Assembly (NCBI RefSeq): GCF_038002345.1 | Contig: NZ_JBBOCJ010000001.1 | Coordinates: 558,001-622,000, forward strand | Direction: 5' to 3' | Length of the DNA: 64,000 nt | Source: Paenibacillus sp. FSL M7-0420 | Lineage (GTDB): Bacteria > Bacillota > Bacilli > Paenibacillales > Paenibacillaceae | Shown: positions 10,694 through 64,000 of the stretch, in pieces | Layout: each line of letters begins with the position of its first letter | Numbering within the stretch: the stretch's first letter is position 1 | Program-made: the position numbers and the translations under genes | Notes under the pieces: model-generated | Told to the model about the DNA's origin: nothing | The model's database searches: none | Seen by the model: the letters and a program-made list of their open reading frames with translations, nothing else

Positions 10694-10900
10694 CACAATT
10701 GGACCGGGTGCGCCGGGTAGGCGAAATGTAGTCGGAAAAGCGATCACAATTGGACCGTGTGCGCTGGGTAGGCGAAATGTAATCGGAAAACCGATCACAA
10801 TTGGACCGTGTGCGCTGGGTAGGCGAAATGTAGTCGGAAAACCGATCACAATTGGACCGTGTGCGCCGGGCAGGCGAAATGTAGTCGGAAAACCGACTAT
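10694..10900. repeat. Tandem array of four 51-bp units
   Basis: CACAATTGGACCG recurs at 10694, 10745, 10796 and 10847, an exact 51-bp period with few differences between units. The last unit ends in a perfect hairpin, TAGTCGG-AAAA-CCGACTA (10882-10899); in the others only TCGG/CCGA can pair. The array lies between two convergent genes. Because 51 is a multiple of three and the unit lacks stops in some frames, spurious ORFs run through it on both strands. There are no unique spacers, so it is not a CRISPR. Confidence 0.9.
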
Positions 10901-61923: not shown

Positions 61924-62799
61924 CTAGGCGATGGAAGTAGCCGGATGCTTAACGTTCGCAGGATATTGCTGCCCGCCCTGAGTGCGGACGAATAGGCCCT
62001 CTGAATGGCTGCTGCCTGACAGCTCCAGGCCATCATCATCAGGAGTGAAGTGAAAGACAATCGTCTCCGTGTCGCTGTCTGCAAGCTTCAGGGCAATTTC
62101 GCGGCAGGAGACGGGCTGTGCGCTGATTAGATCGAAGAGCTCAAGCTGCCCATTCTCCTGCTGGCAGATGGCAATGAGATTCTCGTCCTCCAGGTAATAG
62201 AGCTGGTCGCTGAATACGTTCAGGCAGTAGAACATCAATAGTCCATGGGCGCCGGCGATGCCAAAACGCTCAGATACCGGTACCCGCTGCGCTCCAAGGG
62301 TAGAGACCAGACTCAGATCACGCGGGTCGGCAAGATCCAGCTTGCGGATTGCCGCAGATCCGGCAGTGCCCCCGGGGCAGGCCATGGAGAAGATCTGTTC
62401 TTCCACCGGGTGGAAGCCGAATTTAGGATAGAACTCCAAGACTGACTCATTGGCAAAAAGATACATGAATTCACACGCTTGTCCATACTCCTCCAGCACC
62501 TTGTCCATCAACCGGGCAGACAGGCCGCGTCCTCTATAGTCAGGATGAGTCATCACCGTTCCGATCTGCACAGCAGGGGACTTCACTCCATTAATGGTTA
62601 GCTCCAGCAGATTTACCGAGACATTCGCCACGATCCGGTTTCCCTCCGCGTAAGAATATGGAACATACTTATCCGTCCAGAAGCCCTCCTCATACCAGCG
62701 CTCCAGCTCCAGCTCGAACGTGTCTTTTGCCAGCCCCAAAAAGCTATTCCGCAGCGGCTCTATATCTTTGTAATCCCTAACAAACTTCAATTCTTGCAT
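61924..62799 (-). CDS. GNAT family N-acetyltransferase
   Basis: 291 residues: N-terminal GNAT domain with the acetyl-CoA loop VMTHPDYRGRGLSARLMDKV and YPKFGFHPVEEQ, then a C-terminal extension of about 130 residues rich in beta strands, probably a second degenerate GNAT or sterol-carrier-like domain. SD GGAG lies nine bases before the ATG. Substrate unknown; the two-domain layout resembles Eis-like acetyltransferases. Confidence 0.85.
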   Translation of the reverse strand: MQELKFVRDYKDIEPLRNSFLGLAKDTFELELERWYEEGFWTDKYVPYSYAEGNRIVANVSVNLLELTINGVKSPAVQIGTVMTHPDYRGRGLSARLMDKVLEEYGQACEFMYLFANESVLEFYPKFGFHPVEEQIFSMACPGGTAGSAAIRKLDLADPRDLSLVSTLGAQRVPVSERFGIAGAHGLLMFYCLNVFSDQLYYLEDENLIAICQQENGQLELFDLISAQPVSCREIALKLADSDTETIVFHFTPDDDGLELSGSSHSEGLFVRTQGGQQYPANVKHPATSIA

Positions 62800-63061
62800 G
62801 GTCTATCACTCCATATAGTATATTTGTTACCCCTACAGTATAAGCCATTATATACCATAGGTCATATTTCAGGGTTCCAATACCACAGATTTTAACTATA
62901 GTCAATACGCTAAAGGATACCTTAAAGTACTCTCTGGTACTATTCACATTTAATGGCAAGAACGTTATCTTAGGTAATAAGAAGTGTTCACTATTAAGAA
63001 CCTGTTGTAATGAACCTATTACTGAAACGGTAGCGAAATTATAGACAGCTGGAGGTAACCC
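62800..63061. other. Intergenic region upstream of lasso cyclase
   Basis: 262 bp, AT-rich. No small ORF resembling a lasso precursor in any frame. AGTAC-TCTCTG-GTACT (62926-62941) is a short inverted repeat. GGAGGT at 63051-63056 is the SD of the cyclase gene. Confidence 0.5.
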
Positions 63062-64000
63062 ATGAGTGCAATCGCCGGGATCTATTCTATGCAGCATGGG
63101 CCGCTGGACCCGGAGCTTGGCCCGCGCCTGATGCAGGAGCTGCAGCGTTATCCGGCGGATGATGCCCGGGGCTGGAGTGCGGATGGGCTGTTTCTCGGGT
63201 GCCACGCACAGTGGATTACCCCGCAGTCCCGGGGCGAGGTGCTTCCTTATTATGATCCGCAGCGGAAGCTGGCGATCGTAGCTGATGCCATTATTGATAA
63301 CCGCAGCGAGCTCTTCGGACAACTTCAGGTTGTCCGGGAGGATCGGGAGTCGATGCCGGACAGCCTGCTGATTCTTCTGGCCTATGAGAAATGGGGAGAT
63401 CAGGCTCCGGTGCATCTGGTCGGAGATTTTGCCTTCATGATCTGGGATGCCGGCAGGCAGACGCTGTTTGGAGCGAGGGATTTCTCGGGGAGCCGGACGC
63501 TGTACTTCCACCGCTCAGGCAGACAGTTCTCCTTCTGTACCGTGATTCATCCGCTATTCACGCTAATGGATGGAGGGCACGAGCTGCATGAAGGCTGGAT
63601 CTCGGAATATCTGGCGGGCCAGGGCCGGATGGATGTCGCGGATATGTTCTCCACGGTCTATCAGGGTGTGGAGCAGCTGCCCCCGGCGCATTCGATGACG
63701 GTCAGTCCGCAGGGGATTACCTTCTCCAGGTATTACACCTTCCAGACTCCGCCGCCACTCCGGCTGCGCAGCAATGGGGAGTATGAGGAAGCGTTCCGTG
63801 AGGTGTTCGGACGGGCTGTCCGGGACCGGCTGCGTACCCACCTTGAAGCTGGTGCGAACTTAAGCGGCGGGCTGGATTCAGGGGCGGTGGTGAGCTTTGC
63901 GGCGGAGGAGCTTCGCCGTACCGGCAAGCTGCTCCACACGTTCAGCTCGTATCCTCTGGATCACTTTACAGGGTTCAAGCTGGGCCAGCGGGTGACTGAT
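63062..64000 (+). CDS. Lasso-peptide-type asparagine synthetase homologue (macrolactam cyclase), 3' partial
   Basis: First 313 residues of an asparagine-synthetase-like protein that runs off the window. The glutaminase-like domain (1-200) starts MSAIAGIY, lacking the Cys2 nucleophile needed for glutamine use, while GDFAFMIWD and FGARDFSGSRTLYF are kept. The synthetase domain shows the PP-loop SGGLDSGAVV at about 262-271. Loss of Cys2 is typical of lasso cyclases, which adenylate an Asp or Glu side chain of the precursor and close the macrolactam ring without glutamine. LGCHAQWITPQSRGE and IVADAIIDNRSELF also recall lasso cyclases of Bacillus and Paenibacillus. GGAGGT lies five bases before the ATG. 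Kinase, B1, B2 and precursor genes would be expected to the right. Confidence 0.78.
   Translation, partial: MSAIAGIYSMQHGPLDPELGPRLMQELQRYPADDARGWSADGLFLGCHAQWITPQSRGEVLPYYDPQRKLAIVADAIIDNRSELFGQLQVVREDRESMPDSLLILLAYEKWGDQAPVHLVGDFAFMIWDAGRQTLFGARDFSGSRTLYFHRSGRQFSFCTVIHPLFTLMDGGHELHEGWISEYLAGQGRMDVADMFSTVYQGVEQLPPAHSMTVSPQGITFSRYYTFQTPPPLRLRSNGEYEEAFREVFGRAVRDRLRTHLEAGANLSGGLDSGAVVSFAAEELRRTGKLLHTFSSYPLDHFTGFKLGQRVTD

Follow-up and report, generated by a model that had tools for sequence, protein, structure and literature searches.

A predicted paeninodin-type lasso peptide gene cluster cut by a window edge in Paenibacillus sp. FSL M7-0420, and the leader tyrosine of its clade

Introduction

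An asparagine synthetase homologue runs off the end of a 64,000-nucleotide stretch of DNA from Paenibacillus sp. FSL M7-0420 (hereafter the window; G000:C1:558001-622000 of a 7.67-Mb genome), raising the question of whether it opens a lasso peptide gene cluster and, if so, where the precursor of that peptide is encoded. The original prediction, drawn from the window alone, held that the gene probably encodes a lasso macrolactam synthetase, that the cluster appears to begin with this cyclase, and that the precursor must lie elsewhere. To follow the gene past the edge, the next 20 kb of the same genome were read (L002; window position = L002 position + 62000). The locus is almost certainly a Paenibacillus lasso peptide cluster of paeninodin type (class II) that the window edge has cut.

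A cyclase gene at the window edge

The window holds the first 313 of the 641 residues of the cyclase C (63062..64000, forward strand), the open reading frame remaining open to the window end; the full gene spans L002:1062-2987, equivalent to window positions 63062-64987. As first noted, the translation begins MSAIAGIY, with serine as residue 2 where AsnB has its N-terminal catalytic Cys2, and carries an intact PP-loop, SGGLDSG, at residues 268-274 (63863..63883, forward strand). This PP-loop was read in 159 of 168 distinct cyclases, the present one included, and SGGLDSS in another six. The best NCBIfam model for the full-length protein was NF033535 (lasso isopeptide bond-forming cyclase), at 359 bits (E 4.5e-107), which does not reach that model's curated cut-off of 525, whilst TIGR01536, the model for glutamine-dependent AsnB, reached 113 bits (cut-off 267). 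Pfam domains PF00733 (above cut-off) and PF13537 / GATase_7 were also matched. With NF033535 as the best model, though below cut-off, and PF00733 above cut-off, C is an Asn-synthetase-like macrolactam synthetase of the kind that lasso clusters encode.

The matches to PF00733 and GATase_7 and the intact PP-loop would also suit a glutamine- or ammonia-dependent AsnB of primary metabolism that merely happens to end the window. Such an identity is exceedingly improbable and was rejected: Cys2 is missing, the AsnB model scores far below the lasso model, lasso-type neighbours recur next to relatives of C, and the genes A, K, B1, B2 and D directly downstream already refute it.

The 262 bp upstream of C (62800..63061) separate it from a minus-strand 291-aa ORF, acetyltransferase-like by eye (61924-62799), and are presumed to be the site of the operon promoter. 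This gap contained no precursor-like ORF, as had been noted. One promoter-like match was found at L002:943-971 (window 62943-62971); the scan as a whole returned five matches against 4.1 expected from shuffles, which is no excess over chance, and promoter calls were rejected because the matches are no commoner than in shuffled sequence.

Gene content and order beyond the edge

Beyond the edge, the genes follow in the order C-A-K-B1-B2-D, all on the forward strand, with E convergent on the minus strand, and the cluster is compact and complete in sequence. The prediction of a lasso cluster that starts with its cyclase was thus borne out, whereas the displaced precursor was rejected, since A begins only 28 bp past the C stop codon. 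Nor is the gene order unusual, although it had been thought worth checking: it is the usual paeninodin order, since the construct used to express paeninodin was published as padeCAB1B2D (PMC5067487) and the stretch L297, with a precursor identical to the printed paeninodin precursor, shows the same order.

The precursor gene A (L002:3016-3141, forward strand) encodes 41 residues, within the 35-50 anticipated, and matches the paeninodin family model NF033524 at 60.3 bits (cut-off 27). Its sequence, leader then core, is MKKEYSKPALEVLDVKMTM followed by AGPGVSIADAFQADPDEIVSHS. The leader holds a YxxPxLE motif and the anticipated threonine at position -2; with the core start taken from paeninodin (KMTM/AGPGVSIAD), the core has Ala1 and, within the positions 7-9 at which lasso cores carry Asp or Glu, Asp9. 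The last residue is Ser41, and a C-terminal serine was present in 162 of 163 precursors tallied. Several close relatives of A are named 'paeninodin family lasso peptide' by NCBI, and none of the papers covered by a text search paired the core letters with 'lasso peptide'.

An HPr-kinase-like gene, also anticipated downstream, is represented by K (L002:3319-4257, forward strand), which is weakly HPr-kinase-like at 27.8 bits to PF07475, below the cut-off of 33.3. Lasso kinases are reported to have an essential His-Lys-Asp-Asp motif, the positions of which are not given (PMC9266682); candidates for it are H119, K140, D157 and D158, which all 162 of the 162 relatives aligned share. These retained candidate residues, alongside the sub-cut-off PF07475 match and the terminal Ser41, give the pairing of HPr-kinase-like protein and C-terminal serine that is typical of the paeninodin family.

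The leader-binding protein and the cysteine peptidase of a lasso cluster were both recovered above the cut-offs of their models. B1 (L002:4254-4559, forward strand) is the PqqD-like leader binder that had been looked for, at 117.5 bits to NF033536 (cut-off 80) and E 5e-25 against 9x90. B2 (L002:4556-5014, forward strand) is a transglutaminase-like Cys peptidase with 98.3 bits to NF033537 (cut-off 33) and PF13471 above cut-off, and no other PF13471 match occurs in the genome. Of the Cys-His-Asp triad proposed for it, Cys85 and His120 stood, being invariant in 160 of 160 aligned sequences, but the third acid is not conserved as aspartate (Asp133 in 41/160, Asp134 in 72/160). The expected ABC exporter is D (L002:5028-6824, forward strand; PF00664/PF00005), and E (L002:7470-8666, minus strand) is a nucleotidyltransferase with 211.8 bits to PF14907 (cut-off 31.2).

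A paeninodin-type cluster is supported by the genes present and their arrangement, by their profile matches and conserved residues, and by the pairing of Tyr with Asp described below. Against it count the scores of C and K below their cut-offs and the third B2 acid that is not a conserved aspartate.

The pathway that would operate here is modelled throughout on characterised relatives: all of its enzymatic steps, the ring and the modified tail, and likewise the contact between Tyr and Asp. B1 would bind the YxxPxLE motif in the leader of the 41-aa precursor and present the precursor to the other enzymes, the leader residue probably held by the B1 aspartate (Asp81 here, Asp79 in PadeB1) being a tyrosine and not a tryptophan. 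K would phosphorylate the C-terminal serine on the linear precursor, as in paeninodin and relatives, in which the kinase acts on that serine before B2 and C (PMC9266682). B2, as a Cys-His peptidase, would then cleave after Met-Thr-Met, with threonine at -2, and C would adenylate core Asp9 and link it to the amine of Ala1, giving a nine-residue ring threaded by the tail. D would export the lasso product, and E may attach a hexose to the phosphoserine, PsmN of pseudomycoidin having been linked to such a hexose (PMC9266682). The predicted product is a lasso peptide with a nine-residue ring and a phosphorylated, perhaps glycosylated, C-terminal serine, its ring and tail modification being modelled on those relatives.

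A cluster complete in sequence could nonetheless be a silent remnant without a product. This cluster is known here from its sequence, and colony MALDI did not reveal the paeninodin-like product in P. dendritiformis P1CEA3 (PMC11594732); however, the frames are open, conserved residues are retained in C, K and B2, and close relatives keep the precursor and the operon, which makes a remnant improbable.

RNA hairpin and tandem palindromes

A hairpin lies 3' of the A stop codon (L002:3161-3201, forward strand). An alignment of 17 loci gave it 14 consensus pairs, two of them with double-sided changes, and a hairpin was part of the predicted fold in 20 of 20 Tyr-type loci; the folding z-score of the A-K gap was -2.56. 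The hairpin may raise the level of the A transcript over that of the downstream genes.

Between the convergent D and E lies a tandem array of 51-bp units in 10.6 copies (L002:6840-7381, window-equivalent 68840-69381), each unit containing the palindrome AATGTAATCG(AAAAAC)CGATTACATT. Seven-unit versions occur in L004 and L007, and the same pattern found no array in L005, L006 or L008-L022. Within the window itself, a related palindrome (AATGTAATCGGAAAACCGATCACAAT type) is repeated in three units, likewise at 51-bp spacing, at positions 10727-10850. An Rfam search with the hairpin and the array gave two matches with E no higher than 0.1, both far under gathering scores; these were taken as chance, and an Rfam family was rejected for either element.

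Relatives and known systems

NF033524 was matched in 62 of 100 genomes of the genus, in 239 of 394 of the family (the loci compared below being drawn from the matches listed) and in none of 14 controls. Among the best 80 of 285 relatives, P. silagei DSM 101953 has the closest cluster with a species name, its C being 97 % identical and its precursor identical. Since NF033524 is this widespread in genus and family, and P. silagei has the same precursor, the cluster is of a known kind; it enlarges a family common in Paenibacillus by a single predicted product, a phosphorylated lasso peptide. P. silagei DSM 101953, P. tritici, P. phytohabitans and P. piscarius share the architecture, reversed E included, and the cores of the latter three differ at few positions. 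The tandem array is present in P. silagei and P. piscarius, whilst the same pattern finds none in P. tritici and P. phytohabitans.

The paeninodin cluster of P. dendritiformis (padeCAKB1B2D) is arranged in the same way, C-A-K-B1-B2-D, judging by L297. We take the precursor printed for P. dendritiformis P1CEA1 to be PadeA of the original strain C454. The L297 precursor is identical to that printed sequence, which is labelled paeninodin in a table of PMC11594732. Shared with paeninodin are the Tyr leader, the B1 Asp79, the core pattern AGPG....D, the C-terminal serine and membership of the same cyclase-tree clade, whereas C is only about 54 % identical in the best tblastn segment and the core is AGPGVSIADAFQADPDEIVSHS here and AGPGTSTPDAFQPDPDEDVHYDS in paeninodin. 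Furthermore, E is downstream and convergent here, with the tandem array between, and no E match was found in the 12-kb stretches L297-L300.

Two further systems resemble the locus in part. The pseudomycoidin cluster of Bacillus pseudomycoides has a kinase gene (psmK) and a nucleotidyltransferase-annotated gene (psmN) beside its lasso genes, as here (PMC9266682), but E here is opposite in strand to the operon, and its likeness to PsmN is one of annotation. Linear polyphosphorylated peptide (LPP) clusters share a Tyr-type leader motif, a discrete RRE, an HPr-like kinase, a nucleotidyltransferase and an ABC exporter (PMC13381572). They are described as having an archaeal-type signal peptidase and neither cyclase nor B2 (PMC13381572), whereas the present cluster has both of the latter, and no signal peptidase match was found among its eight proteins scanned; the archaeal-type signal peptidase I without a cyclase that marks an LPP cluster is therefore not the arrangement found here.

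The leader tyrosine and the B1 aspartate

A 2026 paper described tryptophan as "nearly invariant" in paeninodin leaders and tyrosine as the corresponding residue of LPP leaders (PMC13381572). In a crystal structure LppB Asp70 hydrogen-bonds the leader Tyr; PbaB1 Gln79 bonds the Trp, and PbaB1 has Gly42 where LppB has Asn33 (PMC13381572). The Trp/Tyr choice, with the B1 difference, was proposed to let lasso and LPP pathways coexist (PMC13381572). The present cluster departs from this scheme, A having a leader tyrosine and B1, aligned to 9x90 and 9x8z, having Gly44 and Asp81 at the PbaB1 Gly42 and Gln79 positions.

The pairing was examined in 197 loci with a cyclase (183 plus 14 added; L197 was dropped, its stretch holding no cyclase), which reduced to 168 distinct cyclases. 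These loci are relatives of this cluster plus the top-scoring rows of longer lists, and do not constitute a random paeninodin sample. For the 183 loci, the precursor pattern left the first motif residue free and required Pro (or Leu) and Thr, whilst for the 14 added loci that first residue was limited to Y, W, F, H or L; because the threonine is built into the pattern, Thr-2 in the relatives is no independent observation. Spurious pattern-matched ORFs were replaced by the Y/W match of the same locus. B1 was taken as the best-scoring RRE on the cyclase strand or, in 18 split clusters, as the RRE beside the distant B2. Twelve of the 168 gave no usable pair: for two no precursor was found (L037, L071), nine Trp loci had no B1 within the stretch taken and one Trp locus had a truncated B1.

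All 47 distinct cyclase loci with Tyr leaders had Gly/Asp in B1. The 109 Trp leaders with a readable B1 residue were paired with 78 Gln, 22 His, 3 Glu, 3 Asp, 1 Asn, 1 Arg and 1 Ser, the Trp leader and Asp combination being that of L083, L301 and L303; glycine occupied the PbaB1 G42 position in every B1 read. The cyclases of the 47 Tyr-leader loci formed one clade (support 0.94), with L297 and the present C inside, nested among Trp leaders in a FastTree phylogeny rooted on a single distant Trp-leader cyclase (L134). Every member of this clade, paeninodin included, has the tyrosine (47/47), so leader tryptophan is not a defining paeninodin trait.

On this tree the leader state changed once and residue 79 four times, three of these without a Tyr leader, so that Asp alone does not dictate Tyr. 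As the leader switched only once, the Tyr/Asp pairing is one evolutionary event and not repeated covariation. Nor is Asp81 (mutual information 0.78) the sole B1 position to sort the Tyr and Trp groups: Ile67 (0.81) does so marginally better, although position 67 (PbaB1 L65) lines the same pocket.

We consider it likely, by analogy with these structures, that the leader Tyr contacts B1 Asp81 in this branch. The PadeB1 substitution D79A weakened leader binding from 5.3 nM to 150 nM, a 28-fold loss (PMC5067487), which fits a Tyr-Asp contact because the paeninodin leader, as printed for P. dendritiformis P1CEA1, has the tyrosine (PMC11594732). Tyr and Asp81 could instead be unrelated neutral marks of one clade: the tree gives them just one origin, several further B1 positions likewise distinguish the clades, and three loci combine Asp with a Trp leader. 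This is rather unlikely in view of the LppB Asp70-Tyr bond, the bonding of Trp by the aligned PbaB1 Q79 (PMC13381572) and the affinity lost in D79A with a Tyr-containing leader, and a contact pair is retained as the favoured interpretation. PadeA, PadeB1 and dendritiformis are all absent from the main text of PMC13381572 by term search, and a limited literature search, covering PMC13381572 and PMC10368454, did not find the Tyr/Asp pairing within paeninodins in print.

The two leader types also differ in cluster layout. The Tyr-type clusters read were compact, whilst in all 18 Trp-type genomes of the genus that were tested (G025 being outside the test) B2 lay approximately 14-24 kb from C-A-K on the opposite strand. 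In L311 (G028:C1:2866000-2885500) a capsule-type polysaccharide operon separates C and K from E, B1, B2 and a gene that by eye is D-like. Two genomes, G029 (L132, L133) and G089 (L149, L256), each harboured a paeninodin cluster with a Tyr leader and a second with a Trp leader, a natural pair for the study of leader orthogonality.

Coexistence with LPP clusters

LPP RREs were identified in 6 of 100 genomes of the genus, at 98-123 bits as against 56 or fewer for all other matches. Three of these are Tyr-type lasso genomes of an early-branching subgroup (G076, G097, G098), in which the LPP locus lies elsewhere in the genome and its precursor reads MAKKTYIAPAVLEQQEIVFETKISG..., and three are without NF033524 (G024, G033, G042). 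LPP domains were scanned in L268, and the other two loci are alike in gene order, lengths and starts. The three clusters (L267, L268, L269) are on other contigs than the lasso genes or more than 0.5 Mb from them, and adjoin small ORFs that by eye resemble spore-coat genes. A further RRE-like ORF was seen at L278:4893-5186 in another Tyr-type lasso genome (G085), in a neighbourhood that is not LPP-like by eye.

By leader type, LPP loci were present in 3 of the 43 genomes classed as Tyr, in none of the 19 classed as Trp and in 3 of the remaining 38, indicating no avoidance, with numbers too small for a test. The 43 Tyr-type genomes comprise 42 read and G094 (leader alone, from L113), G029 and G089 being placed among them despite having both types; the 19 Trp-type genomes comprise 18 read and G025. 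In the four Tyr-type genomes that belong to a different genus (G262, G264, G271, G274) the search gave no match at E 1e-8. Family-wide, with at most 12 candidates scored per genome, an LPP-profile match of at least 51 bits was counted by eye in at least 48 of 394 genomes, at least 27 of which also matched NF033524, compared with 239 of 394 overall.

All three genomes of the genus with both pathways have a Tyr-type lasso leader, which argues against tryptophan as a necessary safeguard between the lasso and LPP pathways. Whether the founding paeninodin clade returned from a Trp-leader ancestor to an older Tyr-Asp key whilst keeping the paeninodin glycine (PbaB1 G42), the Trp/Tyr choice in these three genomes leaving separation to another safeguard (the glycine, the rest of the leader, or timing) or permitting cross-talk, we regard as evenly balanced.

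The Trp-versus-Tyr rule, proposed in PMC13381572 to explain how lasso and LPP pathways stay off each other's precursors, fails for the very clade that named the paeninodin family. The cluster itself is ordinary, and the part that merits a specialist's time is the Tyr-leader clade together with its coexistence with LPP clusters: with three genomes that carry both Tyr-leader pathways, the interference hypothesis can be put to the test in natural strains, no engineering being needed.
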